A stretch of DNA of 64,000 bases, taken from the NCBI GenBank assembly GCA_021404685.1, contig QWHC01000002.1, positions 186,001-250,000 on the forward strand, written 5' to 3'. Source of the stretch: Chloroflexi bacterium CFX4 (GTDB taxonomy: Bacteria; Chloroflexota; Anaerolineae; Aggregatilineales; UBA2796). The notes below the pieces were generated by a model that did no database searches, had not been told where the DNA came from, and worked only from the letters and a program-made list of their open reading frames with translations. Shown here piece after piece: positions 34,786 to 46,000 of the stretch (its first letter is position 1; the number at the start of each line of letters is the position of its first letter). Position numbers and translations under genes: made by a program.

Positions 34786-36099
34786 ATGCTCACACGCTTA
34801 GAACTTGACGGTTTCAAAGCATTCCGTAACTTTGCGATGGACTTTCGCCCGTTCATGGTCTTCATCGGACCGAACGGCGTTGGCAAAACAAACCTTTTTG
34901 ATGCCATCACGCTGCTGGCGCGCCTTGCCGAAGGTGACTCGTTGGAAGATGCCATGCTGCACGCACGCGGCGAGCCGCTAGAGCTATTCACCTTGCGCGC
35001 TGATGGCAGCCGTGCCGAGCGCATTCAGCTCGCCGCCGAACTCTTATTGGATCGGGAAGTGATGGGCGCCAACGATAAGCCGTTCGCGCCAACCAATACG
35101 CGCCTGCGCTATGAGCTAACCATTGAACGGCGCGGCGAAGGCGCGCACATCACGGCGGAATCGCTGCTGCCGCTGCCTGAAGGGAAAGATGCTTGGTACA
35201 AAGACAACATTCCGAGCAAAGCGCGCAAGGCGTGGCTGCTGCGCGAGAAACGTCCGCCGTACATCGCCACCGTGGGCGAGGAAGCCCAGACGACCATCTA
35301 CCGTAATCAGGATACGGTTGCCGGCGGGCGCGAAGGCATGAAGGTTGGCGATTTGCAAAAGAGCGCGCTCGGCACGGCTGATCCTGTCCGCTATCCGACC
35401 ATTCAGGCGGTGCGGCAAGCGATGCAGAATTGGCGCTTTCTGCGCTTTAACGCGGAAGCACTGCGGCAGCCTTGCGCGGCAGACGCTGCGCCGAAGCTGC
35501 ACGCGGATGGCGCGAATTTGCCGATTGTGTTGGCGCGCCTGCTGCGTGATCAGCCTGAGGCAGCGGCAAGCATTGCACAGGTGATGCAAACTATGCTGCC
35601 CAACGTGAAGGCGGTCGAAGTCAAGACGCTGAGCGGCGGTGATCGGCTGCTGATCGAGTTGATCGGGCAGGACGGCACGCGCTTCAGCTCGCGGGTGCTG
35701 AGCGATGGCACGCTGCGCCTGCTTGGGTTGGCGGCACTGCGCTACGATGCCAAACAGCGCGGCGTGATCTGCTTTGAGGAGCCAGAGAACGGCATTCAGC
35801 CGCTGCGCTTGGCGGATATGGTCAATGTGCTGTATGCGCTTGCGCTTGACCTTGAGCGCGAAGCCCCTGAGGGCGGGCAAAATCCGCCGCTGCGCCAAGT
35901 TTTGGTGAACACGCATTCGCCGGGCATTCTCTCCAGCGTGCCGCGTGAGAGCGTCCACTATTTTGGGATGCGCGCTGCCGACGGCGGGCAGGTCACCTAC
36001 AATGTGCCGGTGCGCCCGGAGCTGATTCCCGATGAGCAGGATCGCTACCGCACGTGGCTGCAAGTGCAGCGCGAATTGGGCGATAACACTTCACAGTAG
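34786..36099 (+). CDS. AAA/RecF-like ATPase (OLD/SMC-type), function unknown
   Basis: This 437-residue protein starts with a RecF/SMC-like N-terminus (LTRLELDGFKAFRNF), Walker A GPNGVGKTN (about 27-35), an insertion without recognisable motif, a signature-like VLSDGTLRLLGLAAL and Walker B GVICFEEPENGIQP. The order is that of predicted AAA_21/AAA_15 ATPases found both as housekeeping-linked genes and in defence systems. No nuclease domain or TOPRIM is visible. It follows dtd by 5 bases. Confidence 0.85.
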   Translation: MLTRLELDGFKAFRNFAMDFRPFMVFIGPNGVGKTNLFDAITLLARLAEGDSLEDAMLHARGEPLELFTLRADGSRAERIQLAAELLLDREVMGANDKPFAPTNTRLRYELTIERRGEGAHITAESLLPLPEGKDAWYKDNIPSKARKAWLLREKRPPYIATVGEEAQTTIYRNQDTVAGGREGMKVGDLQKSALGTADPVRYPTIQAVRQAMQNWRFLRFNAEALRQPCAADAAPKLHADGANLPIVLARLLRDQPEAAASIAQVMQTMLPNVKAVEVKTLSGGDRLLIELIGQDGTRFSSRVLSDGTLRLLGLAALRYDAKQRGVICFEEPENGIQPLRLADMVNVLYALALDLEREAPEGGQNPPLRQVLVNTHSPGILSSVPRESVHYFGMRAADGGQVTYNVPVRPELIPDEQDRYRTWLQVQRELGDNTSQ

Positions 36100-39922: not shown

Positions 39923-41233
39923 ATGATTCAAGTACGCGAACTGGCGACCCTTTCGCCCGATGAACTGACCCTGATTATGCGCCGCGCCGAGCAAGACATC
40001 ACCTCGCTGCTGCCCCAGGCGCAGCAAGTGGTCGAGTCAGTGCGCCACAACGGCGATGCCGCCCTCGTTGACTATGTGCGCCGCTTTGACGCCAAAGACT
40101 ATACCGTCGCCGATCTGCGCGCCAGCGATGAGGATTTTGAGCGCGCCTACGCGGAAGTCGGCGCGGAGGTTGTGGCGGCGATTCGGCACGCACACGCCAA
40201 CATACAGCGCTTTCATGCCGAACAAATGCCCGAACCCATGTGGTTTATGGAAGTGGAACCGGGCATTATGGCAGGTGAAAAAATTACGCCAATTGCCAGC
40301 GCGGGCTTGTATGTGCCGCGTGGCAAGGGCGCCTTTCCCTCTGTGATGCTGATGCTGACGGTGCCGGCGAAGGTTGCTGGCGTGCCGCGTATTGTGGTCA
40401 TCACACCGCCGAATCCGCAGGGCAAAGCAGACCCTGCCGCCTTAGTTGCTGCTGATATTGCCGGCGTGCGCGAAGTGTACGCCGTTGGCGGCATGGCGGC
40501 GGTGGCGGGCTTGGCGTTTGGCACACAAACCTTGCCGCGGGTCAGCAAGATCATCGGACCCGGCAGCAGCTACGTTTCGGCGGCAAAGCGCCTGCTCTAT
40601 GGCGTGGTGGATGTTGGGTTGCCCGCTGGACCGAGCGAGTCGATCATCTTGTGTGACGAGACGGCTGATCCGCGCCTTGCCGCCCTTGATCTGTTGGTGG
40701 AAGCTGAACATGGCGCAGAGTCCGCGGCTTTGTTGGTCACCCACAGCCGCGCCGTTGCGGACGAGGCACTGCGCCTGCTGCCGAGCTACATCGCTGAATT
40801 GCCCGAATGGCGGCGCAAATTTATCGAGAGCGTCCTAAGCAGCTATGGCGGCATTCTGCTGACCAATAGCCTTGAGGACTCGATTGCCTTTGTGAACGCC
40901 TATGCGCCGGAACACCTTGAGGTGCTGACCGCCGATCCGTTCAGCACGCTCAACCGCATCCAGAACGCGGGCGAGATTTTGCTTGGCGGCTACACACCGA
41001 TCCCAACCAGCAACTACACGCTTGGCTTGAACGCCATCCTGCCGACGGGCGGCTTTGCGCGTTCGTTTTCATCGGTCAGCGTCTGGGACTTTTTGAAGCG
41101 CAGCGGCATTGGTTACTGCAACCGTGAGGGCTACGAGCGGCTGCACAACACAACAGTCACGCTCGCCGACTATGAGGACTTCCCAGCACACGCGATGGCA
41201 CTTCGCAAGCGGCGCGCCTTGTGGGGCGAATAG
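39923..41233 (+). CDS. Histidinol dehydrogenase-family protein (divergent metal site)
   Basis: The ATG at 39923 gives 436 residues. HisD motifs are present: GPGSSYVSAAKRLLYG, AGPSESIILCDETADP, LVEAEHGAES, YAPEHLEVL (catalytic Glu-His pair) and the C-terminal FPAHAMALR. By comparison with E. coli HisD, two of four zinc ligands differ: Gln259 is Glu and Asp360 is Asn. The His of the GTNHVLPT motif is Ala (GLNAILPTGG). It is not with other his genes, so it may be a paralogue acting on another alcohol. Confidence 0.85.
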   Translation: MIQVRELATLSPDELTLIMRRAEQDITSLLPQAQQVVESVRHNGDAALVDYVRRFDAKDYTVADLRASDEDFERAYAEVGAEVVAAIRHAHANIQRFHAEQMPEPMWFMEVEPGIMAGEKITPIASAGLYVPRGKGAFPSVMLMLTVPAKVAGVPRIVVITPPNPQGKADPAALVAADIAGVREVYAVGGMAAVAGLAFGTQTLPRVSKIIGPGSSYVSAAKRLLYGVVDVGLPAGPSESIILCDETADPRLAALDLLVEAEHGAESAALLVTHSRAVADEALRLLPSYIAELPEWRRKFIESVLSSYGGILLTNSLEDSIAFVNAYAPEHLEVLTADPFSTLNRIQNAGEILLGGYTPIPTSNYTLGLNAILPTGGFARSFSSVSVWDFLKRSGIGYCNREGYERLHNTTVTLADYEDFPAHAMALRKRRALWGE

Positions 41234-41245
41234 GCAAGGAACGCG

Positions 41246-41276
41246 AACAGGCGAGAAGTTATTCTCGCCTGTTTGT
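41246..41276 (+). terminator. Terminator after the hisD-like gene
   Basis: AACAGGCGAGAA (41246-41257), loop GTTA, TTCTCGCCTGTT (41262-41273) form a perfect 12-bp stem followed by TGTT. Confidence 0.8.
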
Positions 41277-41284
41277 TGCTTCAA

Positions 41285-41455
41285 AAAGTACCCGCTATGC
41301 CGTGTGAACGCGGTGTTTTGAACCTGCTTTCGCAGGTGGGTCATCTCGCCAACCTTCACGCCTTGACTATTGTCTACCGCGCTAGGGCTGGATGTGAATG
41401 CCCGTCAGATGGGTGTTGGCTCAAAACTTAGGGTGCGGCATCACGCACACAGCAG
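41285..41455 (+). ncRNA. ssrS: Probable 6S RNA
   Basis: This region has no gene. It contains the 6S-type core GCGGTGTTTTGAACCTGC with hairpin ACCTGC-TTTC-GCAGGT (41322-41337) and GTGGGT, and a 3' half with CTTAGGGTGCGGCA. Distant arms pair into a rod: ATGCCG (41297-41302) with CGGCAT (41436-41441), GCCAAC (41348-41353) with GTTGGC (41415-41420), and TTCAC (41355-41359) with GTGAA (41394-41398). A rod of this size with a large central bubble is the 6S shape that mimics an open promoter and binds RNA polymerase. Exact ends are uncertain; a T-rich stretch follows at 41464. Confidence 0.65.
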
Positions 41456-41555
41456 GCACATCGTTTTTATACCACGTCAGGGATGCCTTGTAAAGCCTGA
41501 TTTGTTAAGGCTCAGCCAAGCGCAGGTAAAGAGTGTGTGTTGGGCTGGGTTGCCG

Positions 41556-41674
41556 CGCTCACGCCGATTCAGGCACCGGCTCACCGGCGTAGGCAAGGAT
41601 GATCTGCTTGCGCGGAATGCCCGCTTGCAGCAGCGCCTCTACGAGCGGCTTGTCGTTCTGATCGCGCTCTATGA
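41556..41674. repeat. Direct repeat, copy 1 (3' end of xisI 1)
   Basis: This 119-base segment matches 42254-42372 with about five differences. It includes the stop codon and a few bases beyond, while the rest of the two genes has diverged. Confidence 0.9.
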
Positions 41675-41861
41675 CGACCAGATCGCCTGCAAGGCGCGCC
41701 ACCAGACCAACGGTGATAAAGCGCTGACCTGCTAACGCGCCAATCCCAATAACCGTGAATAGCGATCCATCAGGGCTAACCGTCATATAAAGCTGACCAT
41801 TACCCGCTTCACCTGCATAATCAGAAACGGCTTGTTGTACAATTTCCGCTAAGGATGCCAC
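41559..41861 (-). CDS. xisI: XisI protein, copy 1
   Basis: This 100-residue protein has the XisI pattern: MASLAEIVQQAVSDYAG, DGSLFTVIGIG, ARLAGDLVVIERDQND and the tail LLQAGIPRKQIILAYAGE. XisI is one of the small proteins that control excision of the Anabaena fdxN element; the molecular role is not known. Its start overlaps the end of xisH copy 1 by 13 bases. Its last about 37 residues are almost identical to copy 2, while the first 60 differ widely. Confidence 0.88.
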   Translation of the reverse strand: MASLAEIVQQAVSDYAGEAGNGQLYMTVSPDGSLFTVIGIGALAGQRFITVGLVARLAGDLVVIERDQNDKPLVEALLQAGIPRKQIILAYAGEPVPESA

Positions 41862-42253
41862 AACGCAACCTCCTGTTGATCAGGGTCAAACACCAGCAGA
41901 TGCACAGCATGTTTTTGCAGCAGCCGCTGGCTGAGCGTTTCCTGCATTATGCCATAAAAAGCGCGGCTGGGTATGGCAAGGTAGAGTGCGTCGGTGTTTT
42001 GGATTAAATCGAGCGCTGCCCGATACAAGCTGTATTTTCCTATCGCCTGTGCCAAAGCCTCAATGGGCGAAGGCAGTTCAAAACTCTTTATCTCCACCGT
42101 AATGACACGCTGTTGTTCAAAGTGCGTTGCACGCAGATCAATATACAAAAAGCGCTCAGGAAGCACTATTGCATATGGATCATGGCTAATTGACCAGCCC
42201 GCTTTGAGCAGTGCCTGACGCACAGCAGTATGATACTGATCTTTGGCGGGCAT
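41849..42253 (-). CDS. xisH: XisH protein, copy 1 (nuclease-like, intact E-x-K)
   Basis: This 134-residue protein starts MPAKDQYHTAVRQALLKAGW and has YIDLRA followed by VITVEIKSF, the Asp and Glu-x-Lys of a PD-(D/E)XK nuclease fold, then AIGKYSLYRAAL. XisH proteins pair with XisI in cyanobacteria and Chloroflexota. The catalytic residues look intact here. It lies 3 bases downstream of xisI copy 2. Confidence 0.88.
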   Translation of the reverse strand: MPAKDQYHTAVRQALLKAGWSISHDPYAIVLPERFLYIDLRATHFEQQRVITVEIKSFELPSPIEALAQAIGKYSLYRAALDLIQNTDALYLAIPSRAFYGIMQETLSQRLLQKHAVHLLVFDPDQQEVALWHP

Positions 42254-42372
42254 CGCTCACGCCGATTCAGGCACAGGCTCACCGGCGTAGGCAAGGATGA
42301 TCTGCTTGCGCGGAATGCCCGCTTGCAGCAGCGCCTCCACAAGTGGCTTGTCGTTCTGATCGCGTTCTATGA
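42254..42372. repeat. Direct repeat, copy 2 (3' end of xisI 2)
   Basis: Partner of 41556-41674, offset by 698 bases. The near-identity ends abruptly at the codons around VIERDQ. Confidence 0.9.
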
Positions 42373-42559
42373 TGATATGCTCACCCACTATCCGCACGAT
42401 CAGGCTGGTATCAGAAAAGTGCTTATCTTTTATCTGAGAGACGACCACCACCGTAAAAAGCGTGCCATCTTCGCCCTGCGTCAGATAGCCCTGACTGTTC
42501 AAGCCCTTGCGTGCATAGCCTGCAACGACTTCTCTAACCGTTTGTTTTAGAGAATCCAT
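42257..42559 (-). CDS. xisI: XisI protein, copy 2
   Basis: A 100-residue XisI with MDSLKQTVREVVAGYARK, DGTLFTVVVVSQIKDKHF and IIERDQNDK followed by the tail shared with copy 1. It overlaps xisH copy 2 by 13 bases, exactly as in the first pair. The N-terminal 60 residues are only weakly similar to copy 1. Confidence 0.88.
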   Translation of the reverse strand: MDSLKQTVREVVAGYARKGLNSQGYLTQGEDGTLFTVVVVSQIKDKHFSDTSLIVRIVGEHIIIERDQNDKPLVEALLQAGIPRKQIILAYAGEPVPESA

Positions 42560-42954
42560 CGGATAATCTCCTCGCGTTCAGGATCGAATACTACAAGCAA
42601 AATATGCCCTTCTTGAATAGCGCTTTGCCCCATCAACTCGCTTAAAAAGCCTTGATAAGCGGCACGAGAGACCGCAAGATACAACGGTACATCTATTTCT
42701 GCCTCTTTCAGGGCAAGGCGATACAAGAAGTATTTCCCAATGGCATTTGCCCATGCCTCAACAGGTGATAGCACAGAATCTAGTGCTTTTACCTTTATAA
42801 AAATGCTTGTATCAGCACCCACTTTAGAGGCTTTCAGGTCGATCCACAGATAGCGCGCACCAAAGGTCAGTGTGATTTGCTCATCATCAACCGTCCACCC
42901 ATCTTTGATCAGCGCACGCTTGACTGCATCATGATAGCGATCTTTGGCAGGCAT
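42547..42954 (-). CDS. xisH: XisH protein, copy 2 (E-x-K motif lost)
   Basis: The 135 residues align with copy 1: MPAKDRYHDAVKRALIKDGW, ARYLWIDLKA, AIGKYFLYRLAL. The catalytic segment reads IFIKVKAL instead of VEIKSF, so the Glu of Glu-x-Lys is Lys; the codon is AAG. This copy is probably catalytically dead and may be structural or inhibitory. It is the first gene of the four-gene operon. A weak promoter, TTCCCG-17-CATACT, lies upstream on the minus strand. Confidence 0.85.
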   Translation of the reverse strand: MPAKDRYHDAVKRALIKDGWTVDDEQITLTFGARYLWIDLKASKVGADTSIFIKVKALDSVLSPVEAWANAIGKYFLYRLALKEAEIDVPLYLAVSRAAYQGFLSELMGQSAIQEGHILLVVFDPEREEIIRWIL

Positions 42955-43077
42955 CTCGCCTTCCCCTCACCTTAAGTATGCCATGCTTTTTTGCCGACGG
43001 GAACTTTCCTGACCCATTGCGCGTCTCTCTGCATTAGAATGTGAGTAGGCGTTGCCTGCATGAGGAGAGAGTTTTAT

Positions 43078-46000
43078 ATGCCTATCTTCAAACCGATCCG
43101 CCGCGTGTTGTTGACAGCACTCGGACTTAGCCTGATACTAACCAGCATGAGCAGTCCTATAAACGCACAGACCGATCTCAGCGCGCCGCGCATCCTTGCC
43201 AGCACTCCCGCCCAACGCGAGATCGCCGCGCCAACCAGCATCGTGCAGATCGTCTTTGATCAGCCGATGGATCGCGCCAGCGTTGAATCGGCATTCGTCA
43301 TTGATCCGCCTGTGAACGGCACGCCGCGCTGGACGGATGACCAAACGTTCACTTTTACGCCCGCCGCGCCGCTGCCACGCGGCACCGAGTATGTCATCCA
43401 GATCGGCACAACGGCACAATCTGCCCAAGGGCAGGCACTCGAAACGCGCTTCCGCTTGAATTTTCAGATTGCGCCCAACCTGAGCGTCAGCCAGGTTATT
43501 CCCGCGCCTAACGCTGAAAATATCGAGGCAGGCGCCACGATCACCGTCGTCTTTGATCGCCCTGTTGTGCCGCTCACCACCACAGGCGATCAGGCAAATC
43601 TGCCGCAGCCGCTCAGCTTTGATCCACCACTAGACGGCAGCGGTGAATGGATCGGCACGGCGATCTATCAGTTCACGCCCAAGACGGCGCTCAATGGCGG
43701 CACACTCTATACCGCTACGCTCAGCGCTGACCTAACCGATCTTGACGGCAGTGCGCTGGGTGCGCCTTATACTTGGCAGTTCCGCACCATTCCGCCGCAA
43801 ATCCTGAGCGTTTCGCCACAAGGCGATTCTGTGCGCCTTGAGAGCGAGATCACGGTGCGCTTCAACCAGCCGATGGATGAGGCAAGCCTGCGAGAGGCAT
43901 TCACACTGCGGAATGCCGCCAATGGCGCGGATGTTGCCGGCGTGCTGACTTTGGAAGGCGGCACACTGCTGCGCTTCAAGCCGTCCTCACAATTGGCGCT
44001 CGAAACGCCTTATCAGGCAAGCATCAGCGCTGCTGCCCGCAGTGCCAACGGGCAGACTGTCCTCACCAATCCGCAGACCTTCAGCTTCCGCACCGTCCCC
44101 TATCCGCGTGTGCTGAGCAGCTATCCCGCCAATGGCGCACGCGATGTATCCGTGGGCAGCGGCGCAAGCATCACCTACAGCACGATCATGGATCAGGACA
44201 GCTTCAAGGATCGTGTGACGGTTGAGCCAAAACCAGACCGCATGAGCATCGGCGTTAGCGGCAGCACGCTCTACATCAACTTCTCATCGCTGCCGGAGAC
44301 TGACTACACCATCACCGTTGCAGCAGGTGTGGCGGATATTTATGGCAACGTGGTGAACGAGCCATTTGTGCTGCGCTACCGCACCGCGCCGACCGATCCA
44401 CAGCTTACGCTGCCCTTCCGTGATTGGATCAGCGTCACCAATGCGTACCGTCCACAGACGACCATACCCACAGTCAGCCTGAACCTGAGTGCTGTCGAAG
44501 TGAAGCTGGGCAACCTCACCATAGATGAGTTGATGGCGCTCAGCGGCAACAGCTACTACCCGAACCTGCGCGACTACAAGCCGCCGCGCATCACGCGGGA
44601 ATGGTCGCAGCCCGTCGAATCGGTTCGCAACCGCTTTGTCCAAACAAACATCAACTTGGCAGAAGGCGATGGCAAACTGGCGCCCGGCATCTACTTCACT
44701 GAATTCTTTGCACCAGAGTTCCGCCGCTTCTTAATGCCCAATCTGCGCGAGCCGCGCCAACAGATTGTGGTGGTGGCAACCGCCAACCTGACTGTGAAAC
44801 AAGCGCCCAATGCACTGTATGTGTGGGCGAGCGACCTCGCCACAGGCGCATCAATCGCTGATCAGCCGATCAGCCTCTACACCAACGGGCGCAAACTCGC
44901 CGAAGCACGCACCGACGCCGAAGGTTGGCTAAAGTTCGATGTGCCATATACACACAGCAGCACCAACGGCTTTTGGGTGGTGCTGGAAGGCGACGGGCGT
45001 TTTGGCATCACGCACACCAACTGGCGCAGCCAAGACTTTGAGCCATATCGTTTTGAGCTGAATGCCGATTTTCAGCCCGTCAAAACTGTGGCATACCTCT
45101 ACACCGATCAGCCGATCTACCGTCCTGCACGTCCGGTCTACTTCCGCGGCGTTATACGCTATCAGGACGATGTGACCTTCACCGTGCCGCAGAATGAGCC
45201 AGTTCAGGTCATCATCAACGATCCGAACGGACGCGAAGTTTACAACCAAACGTTGATGCTGAACGAGTACGGCGCCTTCAGTGGTCAGTACGACTTGCCA
45301 CAAGATGCCACACTTGGCGGGTACAGCCTTCGCACGCAATTCCGCACCCAGAACGACTATCTCGGCTTCACCGTCGCCGAATTCCGCCCGCCCGAATTCC
45401 TGACCACAGTCACCACAGAGGCGGCGCGCTATGCCGATAGCGATCTGGTCAAGGCAACCATCGAGTCCAAATTCTTGTTCGGCGGTGGTGTGGGTGGGGC
45501 AGCCGTGCAGTGGCAGGTTGTCGCAAACATCAGTTTCTTCGGCAATCCGCGTGATCCGCGCATCCTGTTCGGCGATGAGTTCGGCGGCTACTATGGCGGC
45601 TATCAGCGCGTGGTTGCCAGCGGCAGCGGCACGCTTGATCCGCTAGGGCGGCTCGAAATCAGCTTCCCTGCCGATCTGGGTGCGGATAAGTTTACGCAGC
45701 AGTTCACCCTTGAGGCAACCGTCACCGATATTTCCAACCAGAGCATCAGCGGGCGCGCCCGCATTACTGTCTTCCCGTCAACAGTGCTGGTCGGCATCAA
45801 GCCTGAGAAGTACGTTGGCATGGCAGCGCAGCCGCAGACGGTCGGCGTGTTCACAACGGATTGGGACTCCGCGCCCGTTCCCAACCAAACGGTCACCGTT
45901 AAAGTGACTGAAGTGGCATGGCTGCAAGACCCAAGCACCCTTGAATGGGCGCAAAAGCGCACCCTCGTCAAAGAGGAACGCCTGACCACCGATGCTGAGG

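Follow-up and report, generated by a model that had tools for sequence, protein, structure and literature searches.

What do XisH and XisI do outside the fdxN element of Anabaena? Both proteins are annotated as 'excision controlling factors' in many bacterial genomes, a name that suits only a small number of the loci in this analysis. The 64,000-nucleotide stretch of the genome of Chloroflexi bacterium CFX4 (phylum Chloroflexota) that was analysed (the window) carries two xisH-xisI pairs in tandem. With a probability of roughly 55%, we read xisHI as a toxin-antitoxin-like module, present here in two copies, in which XisI would restrain XisH. The function of these proteins outside the fdxN element is a long-open question, which the family-wide patterns reported below make directly testable.

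Organization of the operon

The four genes are located on the minus strand, in the order xisH1, xisI1, xisH2, and xisI2 from position 42954 to position 41559. They encode proteins of 135 (xisH1; 42547..42954), 100 (xisI1; 42257..42559), 134 (xisH2; 41849..42253), and 100 amino acids (xisI2; 41559..41861; start codon GTG). All four reading frames are open, and all four proteins exceed the curated Pfam cut-off, which is 25 bits for both families. The XisH proteins matched PF08814 with E-values of 3e-31 and 6e-35 (108.8 and 120.9 bits; model positions 1-133/134). The two XisI copies matched PF08869 with E-values of 1e-7 and 7e-6 and scored 26.8 and 32.7 bits. These scores, together with the structure matches described below, exclude a chance identification of the four genes, and the operon consists of ordinary members of the two families.

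The four-gene xisH-xisI-xisH-xisI arrangement recognized in the earlier note was thereby confirmed, and the spacing it gave was exact. Namely, the genes of each pair overlap by 13 bases (42547..42559 and 41849..41861, both on the minus strand), and the pairs are separated by 3 bases (42254-42256). The ATG of xisI1 begins one base ahead of the TGG that encodes the C-terminal tryptophan of XisH1, and the GTG of xisI2 occupies the same position relative to the C-terminal tryptophan of XisH2.

Recombinases and fdxN excision

XisH and XisI are both required for excision of the fdxN element in Nostoc 7120 (PMC4874684). The family name and these Anabaena/Nostoc genetics would suggest that the present operon, too, has a site-specific recombinase and an excisable element under its control in its own genome. 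No match to PF07508, the family of XisF-type large serine recombinases, was found in this genome at E<=1e-3, however, and no recombinase was present among the Pfam-scanned proteins flanking the operon. An excision system is not supported on these grounds, which go beyond the initial claim that no recombinase lies near the pairs. No excisable element was seen around the operon, and the only direct repeats of size in the region 41200-43100 are those within the xis genes.

Among the 38 xisH loci of three cyanobacterial genomes, one had a PF07508 recombinase within 15 kb. The Chloroflexota genomes compared showed no such recombinase close to the pairs; the pairs thus do not consistently flank a recombinase. 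The exception is a xisHI pair of Calothrix (G461:C1:3847689-3849714), 1 kb from a large serine recombinase. This locus, which probably represents a true fdxN-like arrangement and can serve as a positive control, counts in favour of the excision reading. The other 37 loci, together with the lack of PF07508 in the genome studied here, bear out the description of the pair as a free-standing module. Since this genome has no XisF-type recombinase and only 1/38 cyanobacterial xisH loci is near one, excision is not the general role of xisHI, and it is extremely improbable that the present operon encodes fdxN-type excision factors. The fdxN role may instead have arisen later, when one element co-opted such a pair.

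Free-standing pairs are already known in cyanobacteria and Beggiatoaceae. Earlier reports mention xisHI without xisF in Beggiatoaceae (PMC4853749), the co-transcription of xisH and xisI in a nonheterocystous strain of Lyngbya (PMC2674450), and, in a survey of Moorena, XisH and XisI among predicted injection-system-associated domains (PMC11297309). The operon described here resembles the pairs of Beggiatoaceae, Lyngbya, and other non-heterocystous bacteria in the absence of XisF. It differs from them in its tandem arrangement, its recombined xisI ends, its active-site mutant copy, and its phylum.

Structure and active site

The AF2 model of XisH2 (pLDDT 94) superposed on the XisH crystal structures 2okf and 2inb with a Z score of 21 and an rmsd of 1.5 over 127-128 residues. 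The next matches, at Z 6-10, were PD-(D/E)xK nucleases, including NucS/EndoMS, Card1, Can2, restriction enzymes, and a CdiA toxin domain. The residues D39, E54, and K56 (XisH2 numbering), which make up the D...ExK motif, are all present in XisH2 and were kept in 49 of the 54 XisH proteins sampled by the family model. XisH1 is one of the five exceptions. Its glutamate is replaced by lysine (IFIKVKAL) through one G-to-A change (AAG versus GAG), and its nearest relatives keep the glutamate. By model and by residues, XisH has a PD-(D/E)xK nuclease fold with a conserved D...ExK motif, whose catalytic glutamate is lost in XisH1; the earlier description of XisH as nuclease-like agrees with this. XisH1 is predicted to be catalytically dead or altered.

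The AF2 model of XisI1 (pLDDT 93.5) shows the XisI fold and matched four XisI crystal structures at Z 12-14, with the next match at 4.8. No non-XisI fold above this value was among the matches listed from the structure libraries, which does not establish a new fold, and the same comparison revealed no recognized DNA-binding domain in XisI. Many type II antitoxins possess a DNA-binding domain. That none was recognized in XisI and that XisI has no clear match among other structures count against a toxin-antitoxin-like role.

Compared with XisH and XisI of the Anabaena fdxN system (PF08814/PF08869; PDB 2inb, 2okf, 2nlv, 2nwv, 2nvm, and 3d7q), the operon encodes members of the same families in the same gene order and with the same folds, and the active-site residues are the same in XisH2 but not in XisH1, which is without the catalytic glutamate. 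The operon also differs in its genome, which has no XisF-type recombinase and no excisable element that could be seen, in its two pairs per operon, and in its short, divergent XisI proteins. With CdiA-CT/CdiI (PDB 4g6v), XisH shares the PD-(D/E)xK toxin fold (Z 8.4, a weak match) and the possession of a small dedicated partner. In contrast to that system, no delivery module was seen beside XisH, and no known immunity protein clearly matched XisI in structure.

The kinship of the XisH fold with restriction enzymes and with the CRISPR-ancillary nucleases Card1 and Can2, as well as the many diverse copies per genome, would also suit defence by suicide or restriction, in which infection would release the pair as a toxin-antitoxin or restriction-like module against phages. 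We consider this improbable, given that scans with Pfam and PADLOC, which covered both close and distant neighbours, revealed no significant enrichment of toxin or defence genes (PIN, p 0.13; Uma2, p 0.29) and that PADLOC gave no match to the pair. A defence-island context was rejected on the same scans. These neighbourhoods, and the lack of a meaningful PADLOC or NCBIfam match, weigh against the toxin-antitoxin-like reading as well. The lack of any match in 50,697 phage records is neutral with regard to defence.

Start-codon overlap as a family trait

By searching whole genomes with Pfam and scanning 84,980 species genomes, we collected 165 full-length XisH loci, some of which are repeats of one another. 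Overall, XisHI loci number in the hundreds and occur in cyanobacteria, Chloroflexota, Acidobacteria, KSB1, and Planctomycetes. A full XisI was encoded directly downstream of XisH in 162 of the 165 loci; of the remainder, two are truncated at contig ends, and in one xisI is interrupted by a stop codon. In all measurable distinct pairs (143/143), across phyla, the xisI start codon lies one base before the TGG of the invariant C-terminal tryptophan, which is the last conserved residue of XisH. The start sites used for this count were chosen by the position of the XisI domain, independently of the tryptophan. In agreement with the NTGG register, 223 of 224 XisI sequences have a second residue (Asp, Glu, Ala, or Val) whose codons are of the GNN type. 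The overlap comprises 13 bases in 112 of the 143 pairs, and its other lengths are due to differences in the length of the XisH tail and to no other cause. The xisH/xisI overlap is a deep family trait, which is new here. An overlap of 13 bases, being common to 112/143 pairs across phyla, was ruled out as a sign of duplication between the two pairs of the present operon.

In a diverged XisH lineage from one genus (L017, L023, and L024), ExK is lost (A-x-Y), and the XisI partner and the start-codon register are kept, with an overlap of 46 bases. Also, a 158-aa open reading frame of Scytonema (G460; L195:1333-1806, minus strand) contains XisH model positions 2-98 fused in frame to a HicB-like antitoxin domain. 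No natural full-length fusion of XisH to XisI was found in the searched genomes, only deletion products.

One-sided survival of xisI

The survival of the two genes was surveyed in the whole genomes of 400 Chloroflexota and three cyanobacteria. All 40 intact xisH genes were accompanied by an intact xisI, including one xisI that was first flagged as broken and proved to be an intact open reading frame on inspection. By comparison, 22 broken xisH genes were located beside an intact xisI, and 35 xisI genes had no adjoining xisH. Of these 35, 28 are nearly full-length, and one lies at a contig end. This amounts to 50 intact xisI genes with a broken or absent xisH (22 + 28) versus 0 cases of the reverse; the corresponding sign test (about 2e-15) overstates the evidence, because related genomes and paralogues were counted and are not independent. 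In another set, comprising 80 named loci, 11 broken xisH genes had an intact xisI, versus 2 intact xisH genes with a damaged xisI. This set was found via xisH and is thus biased towards intact xisH, and at least two of its loci come from genomes of the first set, so that it is only partly independent. Eight of its broken xisH genes each contain a single nonsense codon in an otherwise preserved frame. Survival counts for a HicAB comparison set are uninformative, since the single HicB model used misses partners.

A solitary XisI of 103 amino acids (L158, L159, L167, and L168) is syntenic in four species of another Chloroflexota genus, with 88-98% identity in the surrounding DNA. Its dN/dS values of 0.11-0.18 indicate purifying selection. 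XisI is therefore selected for in the absence of an adjacent XisH. Both the survival asymmetry and the conserved solitary xisI are new here. The one-sided pattern is what is expected if XisH needs XisI and not the reverse, whereas in a mutual complex that is harmless, decay would start from either gene.

The main rival explanation, which we judge unlikely, is that of an obligate complex without toxicity, in which XisI would help XisH to fold or would activate it, and the two together would act as a nuclease in DNA processing or gene regulation. XisH would then decay after the loss of XisI because it is useless alone, and XisI would have an extra role independent of XisH. Strict pairing, the translation-coupling geometry, and the purifying selection on solitary XisI are consistent with this explanation, and the asymmetry is also expected if XisH needs XisI merely to fold or to work. 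The need for both genes in fdxN excision (PMC4874684) points in the same direction and argues against a toxin-antitoxin-like relationship, in that XisH and XisI can cooperate. A purely mutual complex, however, predicts that either gene may decay first, which disagrees with the count of 50 versus 0, and a separate XisI role has to be added.

A putative nuclease-antidote module

According to the toxin-antitoxin-like reading, XisH would be a small PD-(D/E)xK nuclease, an activity suggested by its fold and catalytic residues, and XisI would be the cognate antidote that binds and inhibits it. With its start codon placed within the last xisH codons, XisI would be made in step with XisH. The loss of XisI would be harmful as long as XisH is active, and the loss of XisH would be tolerated; intact xisH would then hardly ever outlast xisI, and solitary xisI would persist. 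Several lines of evidence favour this reading: the asymmetry in both sets of loci; the low dN/dS of solitary XisI; the retention of D-ExK in most of the sampled XisH proteins; the fold matches, including the CdiA toxin domain; and the constancy of the NTGG register. The many copies and patchy distribution of the pair (27 xisH matches in one Calothrix genome; none in the four other genomes of the present genus that were searched) also fit, as does the state of tandem arrays described below. A conflict or toxin-antitoxin-like role, raised in the earlier note, fits the survival of xisI over xisH.

Like toxin-first type II toxin-antitoxin systems such as HicAB, the pair consists of two small, adjacent, co-directional genes, occurs in many copies with a patchy distribution, and has a partner that outlasts the putative toxin. 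It differs in that XisI has no known DNA-binding domain. No treatment of XisH-XisI as a toxin-antitoxin system was found in the open-access papers searched, and earlier suggestions may exist elsewhere. We tentatively propose, at somewhat short of an even chance, that XisH-XisI pairs form a large unrecognized class of nuclease toxin-antitoxin modules with a universal overlap of the xisI start and the tryptophan codon. The fdxN role would then be a rare co-option, solitary XisI proteins would be antidotes, and tandem operons would tend to keep one active nuclease. Should the nuclease-antidote reading hold, a gene family that is present in multiple copies in cyanobacteria and Chloroflexota would gain a testable function, and the carriage of a nuclease and its partner by an excisable nitrogen-fixation element would be explained.

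History of the tandem

The trees place XisH1-XisI1 together with pairs that belong to other genera in the same family and order, apart from XisH2-XisI2 (support 96/87 in the XisH tree; 84/78 in the XisI tree). XisH1 shares 60% identity with pairs from other genera versus 40% with XisH2. Of the synonymous sites, 68% differ between xisH1 and xisH2. Between xisI1 and xisI2, the share is 66% in codons 1-60 and drops to 18% in codons 61-100. The C-terminal 39 residues of XisI1 and XisI2 are identical, and the last 81 coding bases contain one mismatch, a feature that was missed earlier. The near-identical segments extend over 42254..42363 (xisI1) and 41556..41665 (xisI2) on the minus strand, with approximate upstream limits.

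The two pairs represent different lineages, and their xisI ends were homogenized by recombination, which is a new observation. The drop in synonymous differences points either to a recent exchange of the xisI 3' ends or to the entry of the second pair by recombination at that place. Simple local duplication was rejected, since the clustering of xisH1-xisI1 with other genera and the near-identity of the xisI 3' ends are better explained by recombination after or during the joining of the pairs. The direct repeats in xisI would also permit the loss of one pair.

Four other tandem arrays were identified (L046, L076, L082, and L110). In four of the five arrays, the present one included, one XisH is broken or active-site-dead (Fisher p 0.03, a hint given the small numbers). 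Judged by residues, XisH2-XisI2 would be the catalytically intact pair, and XisH1-XisI1 may be exhausted and retained for its antidote, or it may be a partner that does not cleave. The substitution of glutamate in XisH1, the patchy distribution of the family, and the frequent breakage of xisH elsewhere might also indicate a relic, a selfish pair in decay that has no function in this strain at present. The four open reading frames, the full set of catalytic and invariant residues in XisH2, and the two intact overlap registers argue against decay and make a relic very improbable. As a tandem of one intact and one active-site-mutant nuclease, the operon offers a ready-made experimental comparison.

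Genomic neighbourhood

The operon is flanked by hisD and a 6S RNA gene on one side and by an alpha-2-macroglobulin gene on the other. The remaining Pfam-scanned neighbours have mostly housekeeping functions. The 6S RNA gene (Rfam RF00013; 41461-41285, minus strand; 74.6 bits) has the same orientation as xisI2 and follows it downstream at a distance of 97 bases; with about 60 bases upstream of it, it is kept in three congeners. These three species share the hisD-6S block with the present genome, and in all of them the similarity stops at the same base, at about 41520, just past xisI2. The gene that adjoins 6S in the congeners is located on another contig (C29) of the present genome. These two facts indicate that the operon occupies a point of rearrangement immediately upstream of 6S. 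The insertion of an island was rejected; the break at about 41520 resembles such a point, but no clean empty site was found. Scans for promoter and terminator consensus sequences were uninformative, with matches close to the shuffled expectation.

A third xisI, solitary and with no recognizable xisH adjoining, is present elsewhere in the same genome (G000:C30:118715-118975; L031:1477-1782, minus strand). An ATPase of the AAA_21 family, a Pfam family that includes putative AbiEii toxins, is encoded at 34786-36096 on the plus strand of the window, about 4 kb before hisD and not linked to the operon.
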